64,000 nucleotides of DNA, from positions 124,001 to 188,000 of the forward strand of contig NZ_JANHDK010000001.1 in assembly GCF_024494725.1 (NCBI RefSeq), given 5' to 3'. The notes under the pieces were generated by a model. It was not told the DNA's origin and searched no databases. It worked only from the letters and a program-made list of their open reading frames with translations. This DNA is from Haloplanus ruber (lineage in GTDB: Archaea > Halobacteriota > Halobacteria > Halobacteriales > Haloferacaceae). Position 1 is the first letter of the stretch. Each line of letters begins with the position of its first letter. The translations under genes and the position numbers were made by a program. Of this stretch, positions 18,805-62,448 are shown piece after piece.

Positions 18805-21153
18805 TCAGGCCGACGGGTGACGGTCGTTCGGGCGTGTGACGCCGCCAATCTCGATCCGCGTCCCGGCACGCTCGCTCTCGGCAACGCTGACCGTCCAACC
18901 GTGTCCCTCAGCAATCTTCGAGACGATAGAGAGTCCGAATCCCGTCCCGTCCTCGTCCGTCGAATACCCGCTCTCGAAGACCTGTTCGCGCTCCGCCTCG
19001 GGGATGCCCGGCCCGTCGTCGGCGACGTAGAAGCCGTCGGGTAGCTCGCCGACGGTGATCGTCGACGAGCCGCCGTCGGCCTCCGGCCGCCTGTCCGCGG
19101 AGTCACTCCCTGCGCTGTCACCGGACTGCGTCCGGTTGCTCGTGGAGCCGTGCTCCACGCTGTCGTCGGACCCAGTCCGACTGCCCGTCGACCCGTGTTC
19201 GACGCTGTCACCGGACTGCGTCCGGTTGCTCGTGGCGCCGTGCTCCACGCTATCGCCGGTCCTTGACCGGCTGTCAGTCGAACTATGTTCGACACTATTC
19301 CGAAACAGGTTCTCGAGAAGTTGCTGGAGCTGGCTTCGATCCGCGTTGATCGTTCCCTCCGCCTCGACGCGGAGGGTCGTCCCCGGCGACGAGACGTTTC
19401 GCCAGCAGTCCCGTGCGACCGCCGCGAGGTCGACCGACTCGAAGTCGGCGACCCGGTCGTCGGCCTTCGCGAGCGTCAGCAGGTCCTCGATCAGATCCTC
19501 CATCCGCTCCAGCGCGTGGGCCGTCTCGTCGAGGTGTGCGCTCTCGACCTGTCGCTGTGCCACGGACAGGTGGCCGGTGGCAACGTTCAGCGGGTTTCGG
19601 AGGTCGTGAGAGACGACGCTCGCAAACTCGTCGAGGCGCTCGTTCCGGCGCCTGAGCGCCCGCCGATGCTCGCGTCGCTCGGTGGTATCCCGGGCCGAGG
19701 CGATGAGCGAGACGACCGCCCCCGACTCGTCGGTGACCGGACGGATAGTCCCGCTCACGCTCCGCCTCTCGGGCCCGGAGTTGACGTGGTCGCTCTCGTA
19801 CTCGACGTACTCTCCGTCGGCGGCCCGTTCGACCCACTCCCGGACCGCCGCACGGTCGTCCCCGGGCCACCACGGTGTCTCCCAGAACGGCTCGCCAACT
19901 ACCTCCTCGTGGTCCGCGTCGATCAACTCCATCGCCGTCCGGTTGGCCTTGCGCAGTCGGCCGTCGGGAGAGAGCACGCCGACGAGCATCTTGGGGTCCT
20001 CGAAGACGGCTTCGAGGCGTCGCTCGCTCCGCCGCAGTTCCCGTTCGCGTTGCTTCCGGTCCGTAATCTCTCGTCCCTCCGGAACGAGCGAGGTCACCGT
20101 CCCCGCCTCGTCGGTGATCGGGCGGATCGAGAAGTCGATGACCACCGCCCGATCTGTCCCCTGGATGCGGACCTCGTCGCGGAACAGGTCTCCCGACCTG
20201 GCCTGCTGGACCGCCTTGCGGACCGTCGAGCGGGCGGTCTCGCTCGCTGCGAACCAACACGTCTCCCAGAGTCGCTTGCCCACGACCGCCTCACGGTCGA
20301 CGCCGCCGAACTCTAGGGCCGTCTCGTTGGCCTCCCGGACCGTCCCGTCGGGGTCGAGGAGGCCGGTGAAGGTGTAGGTGTTGTCAAAGACGGCCTCGAA
20401 CTGTCGGGTTCGCTCTCGTCGGTCGCTCACGTCCCGGACGGAACAGACTAACTCCCCCCGGTCGGTCGTGGCGAGGCGGTGGTCCTCGACGAACGTGCTG
20501 CCGTCGGCCCGGAGACCGGTGGTCTCGCCGTGCCACTGCCCGTCGGCCCTGACCGTCGGAAGCACCTCCTCGTGGATCACCGCCGTCTCGTCGTCGGGGT
20601 AGACCTGCTCCCACCTCTCGCCGACCAGGTCGTCGGGGTCGTACCCGTACAGCGAGGCGTACGCCTCGTTGACGTAGACGAACTCCTCGTCGTCCAGAAT
20701 GGCGATTCCCTCCTGTGCCGTCTCGATGGCGTCCAGATGCCGCCGTCGCTCTCGTTCCGCGCGGTGTCCGTCGACGGCGTTCCCGATCCGATTGGCTAGG
20801 ATGGCGGCGCCGTCGGCGTGGGCGTCCTTCCGAAGGTAGTCGGTCACCCCTGCGGAGATTGCCTCGCTGGCGACCGACTCGCTCCCCGTGTCGGTAAACA
20901 GGACGAACGGGAGGCCGGGGACGCGCTCGCGGACGAGACACAGAAACTCGACGCCCGTCCGATCCGGCATGTCGTACTCCGAGACGACACAGTCCACGTC
21001 GTCGTCCAGACGGCCGAGTGCCGTCTCCGTGTCGGGGACCGTCTCGACGACGAACCGGTCGTCCGCGCGTTCGAGGGCAGTCGCCGTCAGATCGGCTACG
21101 TCCGGGTCGTCGTCGACGTACAACACTCGAATCTCGTCACCCGCATCTGACAT
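18805..21153 (-). CDS. Hybrid sensor histidine kinase (receiver-like, 3 PAS, HisKA, HATPase) with N-box repeat
   Basis: A 782-residue soluble kinase. An N-terminal receiver-like domain (1-125) has the acidic pocket DDD at 14-16 and Lys109 but Glu59 replaces the phospho-acceptor Asp (CVVSEYDMP). Three PAS domains follow (about 135-248, 250-372, 375-500). The phospho-accepting His516 lies in SVVSHDLRNPLN. The ATPase domain has N-box ENLFRNSVEH (614-623), G1 DDGPGI (712-717) and G2 GTGFGLSIV. Between N-box and G1 lie four 15-residue repeats (619-678) of the N-box itself plus a Ser/Asp-rich tail. Transmembrane helices are absent, so it senses a cytoplasmic signal. No dedicated response regulator adjoins; the receiver-GAF gene upstream may be a partner. 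Confidence 0.92.
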   Translation of the reverse strand: MSDAGDEIRVLYVDDDPDVADLTATALERADDRFVVETVPDTETALGRLDDDVDCVVSEYDMPDRTGVEFLCLVRERVPGLPFVLFTDTGSESVASEAISAGVTDYLRKDAHADGAAILANRIGNAVDGHRAERERRRHLDAIETAQEGIAILDDEEFVYVNEAYASLYGYDPDDLVGERWEQVYPDDETAVIHEEVLPTVRADGQWHGETTGLRADGSTFVEDHRLATTDRGELVCSVRDVSDRRERTRQFEAVFDNTYTFTGLLDPDGTVREANETALEFGGVDREAVVGKRLWETCWFAASETARSTVRKAVQQARSGDLFRDEVRIQGTDRAVVIDFSIRPITDEAGTVTSLVPEGREITDRKQRERELRRSERRLEAVFEDPKMLVGVLSPDGRLRKANRTAMELIDADHEEVVGEPFWETPWWPGDDRAAVREWVERAADGEYVEYESDHVNSGPERRSVSGTIRPVTDESGAVVSLIASARDTTERREHRRALRRRNERLDEFASVVSHDLRNPLNVATGHLSVAQRQVESAHLDETAHALERMEDLIEDLLTLAKADDRVADFESVDLAAVARDCWRNVSSPGTTLRVEAEGTINADRSQLQQLLENLFRNSVEHSSTDSRSRTGDSVEHGATSNRTQSGDSVEHGSTGSRTGSDDSVEHGSTSNRTQSGDSAGSDSADRRPEADGGSSTITVGELPDGFYVADDGPGIPEAEREQVFESGYSTDEDGTGFGLSIVSKIAEGHGWTVSVAESERAGTRIEIGGVTRPNDRHPSA
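19120..19299 (-). repeat. 45-bp minisatellite, four copies, inside a histidine kinase
   Basis: Four in-frame 45-bp units (19255-19299, 19210-19254, 19165-19209, 19120-19164) encode NSVEHSSTDSRSRTG, DSVEHGATSNRTQSG, DSVEHGSTGSRTGSD and DSVEHGSTSNRTQSG; a decayed fifth copy (DSAGSDS) follows. Units 2 and 4 are nearly identical in DNA, differing at few positions, and units 1 and 3 resemble each other, so the last step was probably duplication of a 90-bp pair. Confidence 0.9.
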
Positions 21154-33396: not shown

Positions 33397-35586
33397 TCAG
33401 ACGCCGTCGACGCCCGTGATCTCGAATCTGGCCCCGCCGGCCTCGCTCTCCACGAGTTCGATCCGCCAGCCGTGGCCGACGACGACCTGCGAGACGATTC
33501 CGAGACCGAGGCCGGTGTTCGACGATGCCGTCGAGTAGCCGGTCGAGAAGACGTCCTCGCGCTGTTCCTCGGGCACGCCCGGGCCGTCGTCCGCGACGTA
33601 GAATCCGCCCTCGCAGTCGCCGACGGTGACGGTACAGTCGGCCCCCGCGTGTTCGACCGCGTTGGTGACGAGATTCTCGATGAGTTGCTGGAGTCGACTC
33701 CGGTCGGCCTCGACGGTGCGTGTCGTCTCGACGGCGAGGGTCGCGGCCTCCGTTTCGACTGTCGCCCAGCACTCTCGGGTCAACGGCGCGAGGGCGACCG
33801 GTTCGACGTCGGTCGTTCGCTCGCCGCTCCGTGCGAGTGTCAGGAGGTTATCGACGAGTTCGCGACTCCGGGCTATCGCGTCGGCGGCGGCGTCGAGGTG
33901 GTCGCTATCACACTCCGCGTCCGCCAGTTCGATCCGTCCCTCCGCGACGGTCAGCGGGCTTTTGAGGTCATGGCTGACGACGCTCGCAAACTCCTCGAGA
34001 AGGTCGTTCTGTCGTTCGAGCCGTTCCCGGGTTTGCTCCCGTTCGGTCACGTCCTTCGCGACCCCGAAGATGGCCGCCGGCTGGTCCGTCTCCGTCCCAT
34101 CCTCGGCCACGTAGATCGGCGCTTTCGACACCAGGAAGTGTCGTCGTTCGCCGTCGACGACGATTTCTTCCTCGGCGTTCACCGTCTCCTCGCGCTCTAT
34201 GGCCAGCCGGTCGTTTTGCCGCACCTCCGTGACCATGCGCTCCGGATGAATCTCGGCGTCCGTGTGGCCGACCACCGCCGATTCCGTGATCCCGAACAGT
34301 TCCTCGTAGCCGCGATTGACGAGCAAGTACTCGCCGTCCCGGTCTTTCATAAACATCGGCGCGGTGGTGTTGTCGAGGATCCCGTCGAGATAGCCTTTGG
34401 TCCGTTCGAGTTCCTGCAACCGGCGCTTGCGCTCGGTGATGTCGTGGTGGATCCCGACCATCCGCCGCTCCCCGCCGTCGTCGACGAGTTTGCCGCGTCC
34501 CTCGACCCACAGTACGTCTCCGTCCTCGCGGAGCATCCGAAACTCGACGTGATAAGGCTCGTTCGACGCCAGCGCCTCTTCGACCTGCTCTTGCATCTCC
34601 GGCAGGTCCTCGGGGTGCACTCGCTCGGCGAAGGCCTCGAACGTCCCCTCGAACGAGCCGGGTTCCAGCCCCATCACGCGCTCTAAGGTCTCGTTCCAGA
34701 CGACTTCGCCCGTCGCCGGCGTCCACTCCCAGACGCCCGTATCCGTCACCTCCGCGGCGAGGTCGAGACGGCGTTCCGCGTCCGCCAGCGTCTGGCGCTG
34801 TCGCTCCCACTCAGTCTCGTCGACCAGCGAGAACACGATGCTCTCGACGCCGCCCGCGTCGTCGAACACGGGGGCGCCGCTGGCTCGGATGACCTTCTCG
34901 GTCCCGTCGGGCCACTCGATCCGGTGACGGTATCCGTACACGGGGTCGCCAGACTCCTGGATCCGGCGGAAGGGGAGTTCGTCGTCGGGAATCGGATCGC
35001 CCTCGAGACTTCGAATCTGCCACGCCGGGTCGTCGTACCTCTGCCCGATGAGCGACGACCGCTCCAGTTCGAGCACCTCCTCGGCTCGGTCGTTGGCGAA
35101 GACGAACTCGCCTTCGGGGTTCAACTGGACGATACAGCCCGGGACGGTTTTGAGGAGTTGTTCGAGGCGGCGGCGTCGGGCGTCGGTGTCGGCGGCCGAC
35201 CGGTGAGCCGAGACGGCCTTCGAGATGCGGTGTGCGAGGATGACGTACTGCTCGGCGCCGGTCCCCTGTCGGAGATAGTCGGTCACCCCCGCAGAGATGG
35301 CTTCGTCGGCGACCGACGCGCCACCCTGCTCGGCAAATATAATAAAGGGGAGGTCGCCGTGTCGCTCGCGAACGATATCGAGGAACTCGATGCCGGTCGC
35401 CCCGGGCATGTCGTGGGCCGAGACGATACAGTCGATGTCGCCACCATCGAGACGGTCGAGGGCTGCCTCGGGGCCGGCCGCGCTATCCACGACCAGTCCG
35501 TCGGCCTCGCGTTCGAGACACGCCGTCGTCGTCTCGACGAACTCCGGATCGTCGTCCACGTAGAGAACGTGGGTCGCCGCGGTCAT
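33397..35586 (-). CDS. Hybrid sensor histidine kinase (receiver-like, 3 PAS, HisKA, HATPase)
   Basis: A 729-residue soluble kinase. The receiver-like domain (1-125) has DDD at 11-13 but Ala57 in place of the phospho-acceptor Asp (CIVSAHDMPG) and Gln where Lys is expected after DYLR, so it cannot be phosphorylated normally. Three PAS/PAC domains follow (about 140-258, 270-388, 395-518; ITERKRRLQELERTKGYLDGIL). His539 is in SVVSHDLKSPLT, the N-box is ENLVTNAVEH, G1 is DDGPGVP, and the ATP lid GLGLGIVSQVV is intact. Unlike the kinase at 18805-21153 it has no insertion after the N-box. It lies downstream of mscS in the same direction, 77 bp away. Confidence 0.92.
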   Translation of the reverse strand: MTAATHVLYVDDDPEFVETTTACLEREADGLVVDSAAGPEAALDRLDGGDIDCIVSAHDMPGATGIEFLDIVRERHGDLPFIIFAEQGGASVADEAISAGVTDYLRQGTGAEQYVILAHRISKAVSAHRSAADTDARRRRLEQLLKTVPGCIVQLNPEGEFVFANDRAEEVLELERSSLIGQRYDDPAWQIRSLEGDPIPDDELPFRRIQESGDPVYGYRHRIEWPDGTEKVIRASGAPVFDDAGGVESIVFSLVDETEWERQRQTLADAERRLDLAAEVTDTGVWEWTPATGEVVWNETLERVMGLEPGSFEGTFEAFAERVHPEDLPEMQEQVEEALASNEPYHVEFRMLREDGDVLWVEGRGKLVDDGGERRMVGIHHDITERKRRLQELERTKGYLDGILDNTTAPMFMKDRDGEYLLVNRGYEELFGITESAVVGHTDAEIHPERMVTEVRQNDRLAIEREETVNAEEEIVVDGERRHFLVSKAPIYVAEDGTETDQPAAIFGVAKDVTEREQTRERLERQNDLLEEFASVVSHDLKSPLTVAEGRIELADAECDSDHLDAAADAIARSRELVDNLLTLARSGERTTDVEPVALAPLTRECWATVETEAATLAVETTRTVEADRSRLQQLIENLVTNAVEHAGADCTVTVGDCEGGFYVADDGPGVPEEQREDVFSTGYSTASSNTGLGLGIVSQVVVGHGWRIELVESEAGGARFEITGVDGV

Positions 35587-59459: not shown

Positions 59460-59761
59460 TGCTGACCACGTACGGCCGCGAGACGGCGTTTCGACTCGTC
59501 CACGCGGTCGTCGCACAGTCTCGGTCGGCCGCGGGACTGACCCACGTCAGGCTCCCCCGCGACGTGAGCGCAGAGGTGGTGCGGCTGTTCCAGCCCCTGT
59601 TCGACGCCACCGTCGAACTCCGGGTCGACGGCGGCGACCTGGACCAGCGGTGGCACTTCCGTGATCGGAACCTCACGTCCGACTGGCTTCCCGTAGGCAA
59701 GCCTTCATGACGAACAACCAACAATACCCTTTTGTGCGCGACGGCCGACTCAATAGATAAG

Positions 59762-61885
59762 ATGAGTCGAGCCGAGCGGCCGGAGGGGCCCGGCGTCGAA
59801 CAAGAGGGTGACGCCCTCGAAGTGTCGTTCCGGACACTCGAGGAGCGTTCCGGACTGGTCGTCGCCGACCTCATCGAGCGCAACCAGTTTCGGCTGTTCA
59901 CCGACCGCCCCGTGTCGCCGACGCCCGCCGACCCTGCCGGCCATCGGTTCCCCGTTGACGCCGCCGTCGCCGTCGAGACGGCCGAAATCGAATTACCGAC
60001 GGTTGTCTCCGTCTGCGTTCGCGACGAACACGGCCAGATGCTCGCCGAGACGGAGCACTCCGCCTACGAGGAGTTTCCGGCCGGGAGCTACAGCCTCGAA
60101 CTCTGTGGTCCCATCAAGATCTATCTCCGGGTCGAAGGGCGCGTGACGGTCGCCACGGACGTGACACAGACGCGCATCGGATTCGACGGCCCGAGCGAGG
60201 TTCGGATCGGCGCCCGCTCTCATCACGAGGGGCCGGCGGCGACGCTGACGACGACCGACGATCCCGCGGACGTGATGACGGCCGTTTCGACGTTCTCCTC
60301 GGCGCTCAAGACCACGTCCCCCGAGCGGTCCTATCCGACGCTCCGGGGCCACCCACCGCTGGTAGAACGCGGCGACCACGTCGAGATTCCGGATGGCGTC
60401 ACGTCGCCCGAGACGGGAATTAGGCTCGAACTACCCCCCGAGTATCGTTCGATCTACGTGGCCACACCGCTTGCGTACTACCTCGCCGCCGACGTGGTGC
60501 CGAGCGACCGGCCGCGTCTCGTGACCGACCGTGGCTTCGAACACGACTTAGATACGATGCGCGGGTTCGAGACGGAGATCGAACGCGTCCTCAAGCAGAC
60601 GTTCTTCCTCGACTGCGTGACACGCACCGAGGGATACTACTCGGTCGACCTCCACGAACGCGATGCCGTCGAAACGGATCTCGACCTCGACTTCGAGTGG
60701 CTGTACGACCAGTCGCTCGCGACACAGTTAGAGGAGTATCTCTCGGTCCCGTTCGGCGCCGTTGAGGACGAACTCCCCGAGTGGCGACTCACCTCCCACG
60801 TCGACCCGAGGCCCGAAAACGTCGAACTGCTCCCCTTCGTGACGAACGACCTCGCGGTGGTCCGGACGCCGCGGGACCAACCCGAACCGAGTTCGGCGGT
60901 CCAGACGGCCGCTGCCGACGAGTTCTTTCGTGACTCGGCGTTCACCCGAAGCGCGTCGTCCGACGACGCCACGCGGTCGTACGTCCAACCGGAGACGGCC
61001 GACTCGCTGGAACAGTCCTGGATTGGCGATGGCGCGCCCATCGGCGCCAGCAAGGCCACCACCGACGCCTTCTACAACCGTCTCGACCGGACCCCCGCCG
61101 ACGGCGACATCGGAATCACGGTCGTCTGTAACGACCCCCGGATGGCCGACGAACGCGATGTGGTCGACGAGGTGTACGGCTCTCGCGAGCAACTCCCCTT
61201 CGACGTCCGGGTCCATCACGACCTGCGACGAGCGGAACTGCGAGAGGTGCTTTCGGCGGAGACGGACCTCCTGCATTACATCGGCCACATCGACGCCGCG
61301 GGCTTCGAGTGTGCGGATGGCAAACTCGACGCGACGACGCTCACGAGCGCCGGTCCCGACGCCTTCCTGCTGAACGCCTGTCAGTCCTACGAGCAAGGGT
61401 CGGCGCTCATCGAGGCCGGAGCCATCGCCGGCATCGTGACCCTCTCGGACGTGATCAACAGCGGCGCCGTCCGGATGGGTCGGATGCTGGCACGCCTGCT
61501 CGACCAGGGGTTCACCGTCGGGAGCGCACTCGAAGTCGCGCGCGAGGACTCGATCATCGGCGAGCAGTACACCGTCATTGGGGACAGTAGCCTCTCCCTG
61601 GCCCGGACCGACGGCGGTCCGCCGAACGTCTGTGTCGTCCGGTCCCGCACCGACGACCGGTTCGAACTGGAGTGGCAAAGTCACCCCTCGACGTCGTTCG
61701 GCATGGGAAGTCTCGTGATGCCGTGGCTCGACGAGGTCAACGAGTACTACCTCTGGTCGGGCGACTCTCGGACGTTCGAGTTGACCCGCAAGGAGTTACG
61801 ACAGTTTCTCTCGCTGGAGACGGTACCGGTGAAAATCGACGGTTCGCTCGTCTGGAGTGACGAACTCGATCTTTCGAAGGTTTAG
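59762..61885 (+). CDS. CHAT-domain (caspase-like) cysteine protease
   Basis: A 707-residue protein. The C-terminal CHAT domain (about 430-660) has both catalytic residues: His509 in HYIGHIDAAGFECADG and Cys540 in LLNACQSYEQG, followed by the helix SALIEAGAIAGIVTLSDV and the loop GEQYTVIGDSSLSLA. The N-terminal 430 residues contain no TPR repeats; they look like two beta-rich domains (VVSVCVRDEHGQMLAETEHS; GIRLELPPEYRSIYVATPLAYYLAAD) and may sense a signal. Cytoplasmic; no signal peptide. It follows the split DUF7504-like gene by 51 bp and meets the 13-repeat gene tail to tail with a 4-bp overlap. I chose the ATG at 59762 (MSRAERPE). Probably cleaves a dedicated substrate; the neighbouring repeat protein is a candidate. 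Confidence 0.9.
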   Translation: MSRAERPEGPGVEQEGDALEVSFRTLEERSGLVVADLIERNQFRLFTDRPVSPTPADPAGHRFPVDAAVAVETAEIELPTVVSVCVRDEHGQMLAETEHSAYEEFPAGSYSLELCGPIKIYLRVEGRVTVATDVTQTRIGFDGPSEVRIGARSHHEGPAATLTTTDDPADVMTAVSTFSSALKTTSPERSYPTLRGHPPLVERGDHVEIPDGVTSPETGIRLELPPEYRSIYVATPLAYYLAADVVPSDRPRLVTDRGFEHDLDTMRGFETEIERVLKQTFFLDCVTRTEGYYSVDLHERDAVETDLDLDFEWLYDQSLATQLEEYLSVPFGAVEDELPEWRLTSHVDPRPENVELLPFVTNDLAVVRTPRDQPEPSSAVQTAAADEFFRDSAFTRSASSDDATRSYVQPETADSLEQSWIGDGAPIGASKATTDAFYNRLDRTPADGDIGITVVCNDPRMADERDVVDEVYGSREQLPFDVRVHHDLRRAELREVLSAETDLLHYIGHIDAAGFECADGKLDATTLTSAGPDAFLLNACQSYEQGSALIEAGAIAGIVTLSDVINSGAVRMGRMLARLLDQGFTVGSALEVAREDSIIGEQYTVIGDSSLSLARTDGGPPNVCVVRSRTDDRFELEWQSHPSTSFGMGSLVMPWLDEVNEYYLWSGDSRTFELTRKELRQFLSLETVPVKIDGSLVWSDELDLSKV

Positions 61886-62448
61886 GGACCGGAGATGCCG
61901 CCGCTGTTGCCGTCGGCAGTGTAGGGCCCGGAAATGCCACCACTGTTGCCGTCTGCGGTGAAGGGGCCAGAGATACCGCCACTGTTTCCGTCAGCAGTGT
62001 AGGGACCAGAGATACCGCCACTGTTGCCGTCCGCGGTGAAGGGACCAGAGATACCGCCACTGTTCCCGTCGGCAGTGTAGGGGCCGGAAATTCCGCCGCT
62101 GTTGCCGTCTGCGGTGAAGGGACCGGAAATGCCACCACTGTTGCCATCGGCAGTGTAGGGACCGGAGATGCCGCCACTGTTTCCATCCGCAGTGTAGGGC
62201 CCAGAGATGCCACCACTGTTGCCGTCAGCGGTGAACGGACCGGAGATGCCACCGCTGTTCCCGTCCGCGGTTGAGGGTCCGGAGATTCCGCCGCTGTTAC
62301 CGTCCGCGGTGAAGGGGCCAGAGATGCCGCCGCTGTTGCCGTCGGCAGTGTAGGGACCGGAGATACCGCCGCTGTTGCCGTCGGCAGTAACGTTTGACTG
62401 TCGAGTCTTGTCGGCCGCTGCCACCGTGCCGCTGTCACGTTTGGACAT
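61882..62448 (-). CDS. Protein of thirteen 13-residue repeats (TADGNSGGISGPY/F)
   Basis: A 188-residue protein: a 20-residue lead (MSKRDSGTVAAADKTRQSNV) and thirteen copies of TADGNSGGISGP plus one variable residue, in order Y, F, S, F, Y, Y, F, Y, F, Y, F, Y; the last copy ends at Pro. The repeats are identical at the protein level apart from that position, although the DNA differs at many third positions. Each copy has only one charge (Asp). No signal peptide, no hydrophobic helix. It could be a scaffold, a beta-rich fibre, a multi-core precursor or the substrate of the CHAT protease; I do not recognise the family. A strong TATA box lies upstream, so it has its own promoter. Confidence 0.85.
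   Translation of the reverse strand: MSKRDSGTVAAADKTRQSNVTADGNSGGISGPYTADGNSGGISGPFTADGNSGGISGPSTADGNSGGISGPFTADGNSGGISGPYTADGNSGGISGPYTADGNSGGISGPFTADGNSGGISGPYTADGNSGGISGPFTADGNSGGISGPYTADGNSGGISGPFTADGNSGGISGPYTADGNSGGISGP
61885..62388 (-). repeat. 39-bp tandem array, 13 units, coding
   Basis: Twelve full 39-bp units and one 36-bp unit. Units coding F are followed by Thr codon ACC, and those coding Y mostly by ACT, so codon and amino-acid types are linked and the array seems to have grown by copying Y-F pairs of 78 bp. Synonymous changes at Gly, Ser, Ile, Pro and Asn codons are frequent. Confidence 0.9.

Follow-up and report, generated by a model that had tools for sequence, protein, structure and literature searches.

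A histidine kinase gene in the analysed DNA of Haloplanus ruber, a stretch of 64,000 nucleotides called the window below, carries a tandem array of short hairpins in which the complementarity of the arms, and not their sequence, is conserved, synonymous sites included. We lean towards reading this array as an in-frame cassette of hairpins at the level of DNA, which would expand by tandem duplication and pass from one kinase paralogue to another by way of a disordered loop, as the comparison of present-day sequences suggests.

Results

The kinase gene and its repeats

The gene occupies positions 18805..21153 of the minus strand and encodes a protein of 782 aa with a REC-PAS-PAS-PAS-HisKA-HATPase arrangement, based on the open reading frame and the Pfam matches (Response_reg, PAS_4/PAS_9, HisKA with E 4e-12 and HATPase_c with E 3e-16). 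It is a HisKA/HATPase_c histidine kinase with N, G1 and G2 motifs, and the residues invariant in the alignment (A1) are H25, N128, D221, G223, G225 and G247. The translation places the functional N-box NSVEH, whose Asn codon AAT (19297..19299, minus strand) corresponds to the invariant N128, and the G1 box DDGPGI (19003..19020, minus strand), which holds the invariant D221, G223 and G225. The best structural matches are the solved kinases ZraS, CpxA and HK853, and the fold is canonical. The loop encoded by the array links the N-box helix with the strand that precedes the G1 box; AlphaFold models it as disordered, with most pLDDT values at about 50 or lower. It is worth adding that the codon two upstream of the N-box Asn (19303-19305) encodes Phe, which is written TTT in 39 of 71 hairpin kinases and in 16 of 34 others, compared with only about 11% elsewhere in those kinase genes; unusual codon conservation thus reaches upstream of the array.

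The stretch from the N-box Asn to the G1 box contains four units of 45 bp (19114-19293, minus strand), which directly follow this Asn and read in order NSVEHSSTDSRSRTG, DSVEHGATSNRTQSG, DSVEHGSTGSRTGSD and DSVEHGSTSNRTQSG. An earlier sequence-only reading had described tandem N-box-like copies in this loop, and both its description and its coordinates are correct. The same is true of its remark that the second kinase of the window has a short loop: the gene at 33397-35586 encodes NAVEHAGADCTVTVG at this site, without an array. For positions 19113-19293, TRF reported a period of 45 with 3.3 copies (score 189) and a higher-order period of 90 bp with 85% matches (score 271). Unit 1 (VEHSSTDSRSRTGDS, 19249..19293) holds the functional N-box tail and is followed on the same minus strand by unit 2 (VEHGATSNRTQSGDS, 19204..19248, type B), unit 3 (VEHGSTGSRTGSDDS, 19159..19203, type A) and unit 4 (VEHGSTSNRTQSGDS, 19114..19158, type B).

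In the coding orientation, each unit consists of H1 (17 nt, with a 7-bp stem and a 3-nt loop), 5 nt, H2 (17 nt) and 6 nt, and the inverted repeats H1 and H2, with their 7-bp stems and 3-nt loops, are spaced about 22.5 bp apart. H1 encodes VEHGST, while H2 encodes SRTESD or NRTQSG. All coordinates of the hairpins refer to the minus strand. H1 is perfect in unit 1 (GTCGAAC-ATA-GTTCGAC, 19277..19293) and in unit 4 (GTGGAGC-ACG-GCTCCAC, 19142..19158, 8 bp including the flanking C/G) and has one mismatch in unit 2 (GTGGAGC-ACG-GCGCCAC, 19232..19248) and in unit 3 (GTCGAAC-ACG-GGTCGAC, 19187..19203). H2 is perfect in unit 1 (GCCGGTC-AAG-GACCGGC, 19255..19271), unit 2 (ACCGGAC-GCA-GTCCGGT, 19210..19226), unit 3 (GTCGGAC-TGG-GTCCGAC, 19165..19181) and unit 4 (ACCGGAC-GCA-GTCCGGT, 19120..19136). 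Six of the eight hairpins are therefore perfect and two have one mismatch. The stems vary between units yet pair, as GTCGAAC/GTTCGAC or GTGGAGC/GCTCCAC in H1 and as GCCGGTC/GACCGGC, ACCGGAC/GTCCGGT or GTCGGAC/GTCCGAC in H2.

Perfect 7-3-7 inverted repeats occupy 6 of the 8 positions set by the 45-bp period, versus 16 occurrences in the rest of the 64 kb, and the array gave folding z-scores of -7.6 as DNA and -7.0 as RNA, being more stable than 200 of 200 dinucleotide shuffles. These hairpins and z-scores exclude a chance origin. An assembly artefact, a doubt raised by the sequence-only reading, is excluded by the presence of similar arrays in many other kinases and genomes; a search of other haloarchaeal kinases for the repeats, which it had proposed, did find them.

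Covariation of the hairpin arms

The peptide VEHGST sets five of the seven H1 pairs, and the other two join wobble bases, V3 with S3 and E3 with G3. Among 150 VEHGST-coding sites from 39 genomes, collected with a search pattern that left the wobble bases free, V3/S3 were paired in 117 (64±5.5 in shuffles) and E3/G3 in 119 (71±5.6 in shuffles), while the control cross pairs V3-G3 and E3-S3 were at chance level. When one site per genome was taken, the values were 31/39 (16.9±2.9) and 30/39 (18.5±2.8), respectively. H2 was sampled blind, with a pattern in which every H2 base was free, and proved to be a perfect palindrome in 30 of the 33 units and imperfect in three. Pairing was found in 226 of 231 H2 pairs, compared with 179 (at most 194) after shuffling and 24-63 in a slid register; 96.9% of cells were paired, and double-sided changes numbered 44 versus 13.7±3.5. 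The pair types GC, AT, CG and TA all occur at a single H2 position. Changes in H2 alter the peptide in a coupled fashion (SRT.SD with NRT.SG), and part of the protein pattern is therefore a by-product of base pairing.

Synonymous codon resampling yielded 10.8±3.0 hairpins for 52 kinases of the class, in which 89 were seen, and 2.3±1.4 for 11 kinases of the window's own genome, in which 33 were seen. These nulls hold 8-14 times fewer hairpins than observed, although the shuffle and resampling statistics overstate significance because units related by descent were counted as independent, and the argument is borne by the effect size and the controls. Hairpins were at background level in the 90 codons before and the 60 codons after the linker, and in array-less kinases. 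An independent set of named kinases was chosen by protein similarity, from genera including Halorubrum, Haloferax, Halapricum, Natrinema, Haloterrigena, Halorussus and Halorientalis; in this set, 24 repeat kinases contained 52 hairpins (5.0±2.0 expected) and 19 short-linker kinases contained one (0.6 expected). Both arms were also changed together in an orthologue pair, with H1 GTCGAAC versus GTGGAGC and H2 GCCGGTC versus GCCGGAC. Many long linkers hold eroded or longer-loop palindromes, and the kinase can therefore do without the hairpins.

It could be supposed that the pattern is purely mutational, i.e., that the codons for VEHGST are accidentally quasi-palindromic, template switching homogenises the arms and slippage expands the units, with no function or selection involved. 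Template switching both gives rise to hairpins and repairs them (PMC8794818), it also rewrites inverted repeats in coding sequence (PMC8604942), and the five H1 pairs imposed by the peptide agree with this account. We nevertheless consider it unlikely, as the background ratio of perfect to one-mismatch repeats was 0.085 versus 0.068 in the null, against 30:3 in H2, and, by our own count, none of six VEHGST sequences standing alone outside arrays was perfect. With so little arm homogenisation elsewhere in the genome and with imperfect solitary sites, a site-specific maintaining force is needed.

Differences between neighbouring stems

Neighbouring stems are kept different. Across all genomes, 24 of 31 pairs of adjacent perfect H1 stems were unlike at each of the two free positions (28% at random), and second-neighbour H1 stems were identical in 9 of 9. 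The adjacent stems also differed in 8 of the 13 arrays with just two perfect H1, and when units were permuted within genes the fraction of results as low was 0.0000 of 5000. Units alternate strictly as A-B-A-B in six own-genome kinases. The stem pairs in use vary between genomes: GTCGAAC occurs with GTGGAGC, and elsewhere GTCGAGC with GTGGAAC. The 90-bp duplication unit accounts for the identity of second neighbours, but not for the two-hairpin arrays. Unlike neighbours are the expectation if every hairpin must fold on itself, and the purely mutational account does not predict them.

The same difference between neighbours would be expected if local RNA folding matters, and the RNA z-score given above also suits a selected mRNA structure, in which the tandem hairpins would control translation, folding pauses or decay of the kinase message. 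One-mismatch stems, read in the sense orientation, however, comprise 14 G.T and 29 A.C mismatches, which is the opposite of RNA stems. Since an RNA stem would favour G.U, the excess of A.C points to DNA rather than mRNA; this mismatch asymmetry, to which codon usage contributes, is the single basis for that distinction. The number and kind of arrays shift between sister species, orthologues can be without hairpins, and an Rfam search of the array gave no match above the gathering score. Overall, the mRNA explanation appears distinctly unlikely.

Distribution

Codons for VEHGST were found in 94 of 145 haloarchaeal genomes and 35 of 58 genera, these matches being not all arrays and at least one lying in an unrelated gene (L082). 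Of the 197 genomes of the phylum, 12 were found to have the tandem 45-bp pattern, and all 12 belong to the window's own order. In the own genome (3.28 Mb), 18 of 18 strict H1 matches lie inside kinase linkers, with 0 for the reversed-pattern control, and 16 of 18 H2 matches lie in kinases, with 1 for the reversed control; the genome-wide statements on this genome come from pattern searches and a 464-kb sample. The other two H2 matches are one in the rpS4e tail, which as a mobile palindrome was rejected because it falls within the control rate, and one at C2:342181-342197 (L141), where a perfect H2 hairpin ACCGGACTGCGTCCGGT lies in none of the array kinases listed. A general mobile palindrome was likewise rejected, as strict H1 patterns matched kinases only. 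Matches on plasmids came from four haloarchaeal records, all of them kinases, and no similar DNA was found in the phages searched.

In the 464-kb sample, the kinase array apart, perfect 7-bp/3-nt inverted repeats were about 1.5 times as frequent as the local Markov expectation (140 vs 96). The other hairpin clusters of this sample fall in three genes, by eye PQQ-repeat, NosD-like and P450, and look like GC-rich coding repeats, as does the cluster at 30.7-31.0 kb of the window. A further repeat gene of the window, at 61882-62448 (minus strand), is an ORF of 188 aa in which a 13-residue repeat (TADGNSGGISGPY/F) recurs about 13 times. It is convergent with, and touches, the ORF at 59732-61885, whose C-terminal part is CHAT-type protease-like by eye.

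The arrays L138 and L139 contain Ns, and a unit in G111:C21 starts at base 14, at the contig end. Short-read assemblies therefore probably break or collapse the arrays, and copy numbers in drafts are unreliable. Two loci of genome G134 (L174 and L165) have four or more near-identical tandem units each, with one H1 mismatch in nearly every copy, and look like very recent expansions.

Turnover between orthologues and exchange among paralogues

Orthologous linkers turn over between sister species, and the pieces of a linker fit same-genome paralogues better. The syntenic orthologue of the window kinase in genome G152 has about 87% DNA identity on either side of the linker, yet in place of four units it carries a single complete one plus a remnant, and both arms are altered in H1 and in H2. 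The variation in copy number between orthologues that the sequence-only reading anticipated is thus real. Hairpin number or kind differed in 10 of 10 orthologous pairs with long linkers, whose flanks are 83-87% identical, while matched array-less pairs keep short linkers.

Linker tiles of 30 nt matched same-genome paralogues at ≥93% identity in 31% of cases, sister-genome non-orthologues in 13% and the orthologue in 4%, whereas for tiles of the upstream flank the order was reversed (0.8%, 0.5% and 22%, respectively); the best of about 10 paralogues was here compared with one orthologue, and in the size-matched comparison, with the sister-genome non-orthologues (13%), the values lie closer together. 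Concerted evolution was judged from units and tiles in place of the codon identity of the first unit, which is uninformative because genes begin with unit type A or B. In the linker-free tree, kinases with and without hairpins are interspersed, with 15 changes, of which at least five are forced by starred branches. In G147, G145 and G154, the kinases most closely related to that of the window have no array, and their N-boxes are NAITHGG, NALRHGG and NALDHGG; acquisition of the array was therefore accompanied by a new N-box tail, and this, by comparison of these sequences, suggests a copied cassette.

G152 also has a third hairpin type, CGAGGGATC-GGA-GATCCCTCG (encoding EGSEIPRE), at loci L288, L298 and L305, and at L305 the identical 9-bp stem has its loop inverted to TCC. 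Loop inversion is a hallmark of template switching, and an identical stem with an inverted loop in different kinases of one genome is in line with the purely mutational account. It is, however, the one clear same-genome case, and the excess of such inversions was not significant (6 observed vs 5.2 permuted).

At locus L159, the VEHGST peptide is lost beyond the first hairpin, yet hairpins still form in the part that follows. The sequence-only reading had seen in the array an amplification of a catalytic motif: the copies are real, but with this loss of the peptide and the synonymous covariation they are better described as a side effect of a DNA hairpin unit. Its further proposal of phase variation found no support, the arrays being identical in one pair of plasmids, from Haloferax lucentense SVX82 and H. 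alexandrinus BNX82, which are 99.5% identical over 3 kb. A protein-level knob beside the ATP-binding site, tuned by copy number and possibly phase-variable, would fit a loop that leads from the N-box helix towards G1 and varies widely in length among array kinases. The signal, however, sits at synonymous sites, hairpins persist where the peptide is lost, the loop is predicted to be disordered and the two near-identical plasmids do not differ in their arrays, all of which makes such a knob very improbable.

Discussion

In the reading that we favour, that of a hairpin cassette, the units would multiply through tandem duplication, and gene conversion, with the conserved N-box DNA as its anchor, would carry them to other kinase paralogues, as judged from present-day sequences. 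As H1 re-encodes VEHG, catalysis would survive the insertion, and the kinase would tolerate the peptide as a disordered loop. Selection for the local folding of hairpins in DNA would preserve the complementarity of the arms, with hairpin-templated (template-switch) repair probably assisting. The array may thus be a recombination-prone, possibly selfish element that targets the kinase family itself, with any effect on kinase output being secondary.

Like coding minisatellites (VNTRs), the array has a tandem, in-frame 45-bp unit whose copy number differs between orthologues, but we know of no ordinary coding minisatellite with conserved complementarity within the unit, alternation of stem types or sharing among paralogues. 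Template-switch quasipalindromes resemble it in that template switching explains simultaneous compensatory changes in both arms (PMC8794818, PMC8604942), such as are found here; the known cases are sporadic single events, whereas the kinase arrays are class-wide, lie at one gene site and have unlike neighbours.

Rickettsia palindromic elements (RPEs) are in-frame palindromic DNA in protein genes and encode a tolerated peptide; they are about 100-150 bp long, conserved in sequence and dispersed in unrelated genes and non-coding DNA (PMC10969869). The kinase hairpins are also in-frame palindromic insertions in coding DNA, but their units are tandem and of 45 bp instead of a conserved 100-150-bp element, their stems vary in sequence while complementarity is conserved, and in the own genome they lie at one histidine-kinase site and are not dispersed in unrelated or intergenic DNA. 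REPs with GTAG- and CGTC-tagged repeats are short stem-loops present in multiple copies per genome and sometimes intragenic; they are mainly extragenic, are sorted by family consensus and carry a tag that stays unpaired, with RAYT transposases linked to the GTAG class (PMC3733652). The kinase hairpins share the short stem-loops and the multiple copies per genome, but in the own genome they are not predominantly extragenic, and consensus families and an unpaired tag were not seen. We therefore give little credence to an in-frame palindromic element mobilised by a transposase in the manner of RPEs or of RAYT-mobilised REPs, even though such insertions are present or absent between close relatives and the units are common to paralogues of one genome: the strict H1 matches of the own genome all lie at a single site of a single gene family, stems that vary while remaining complementary are unlike mobile-element copies and a constant unpaired GTAG/CGTC tag was not noted.

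In-frame palindromic elements that are dispersed and sequence-conserved are already known (RPEs, PMC10969869; intragenic REPs, PMC3733652). An array of hairpins that is confined to a single site in one gene family, conserves complementarity and has unlike neighbours appears to be undescribed: we found no description of these repeats in the literature searched, which did not extend to subscription papers, nor are they mentioned in the archaeal two-component census.

That compensatory synonymous changes occur within a conserved catalytic motif shows the maintenance of a nucleic-acid hairpin in a protein gene, and repeat "mimicry" of a protein motif can thus be a DNA phenomenon. The class-wide spread, which includes the tractable genus Haloferax, makes selection and template switching directly testable as sources of the compensation. 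It is conceivable, and we offer it tentatively, that Haloarchaea keep an actively exchanged library of mutually orthogonal DNA hairpins in a single loop of many sensor kinases, as a recombination system, programmed or selfish, that is restricted to one gene family; arm complementarity, rather than sequence or peptide, would be inherited, and the catalytic motif beside the insertion would be re-created. In this class, the kinase linkers are likely sites at which paralogue exchange and breaks in assemblies are frequent.
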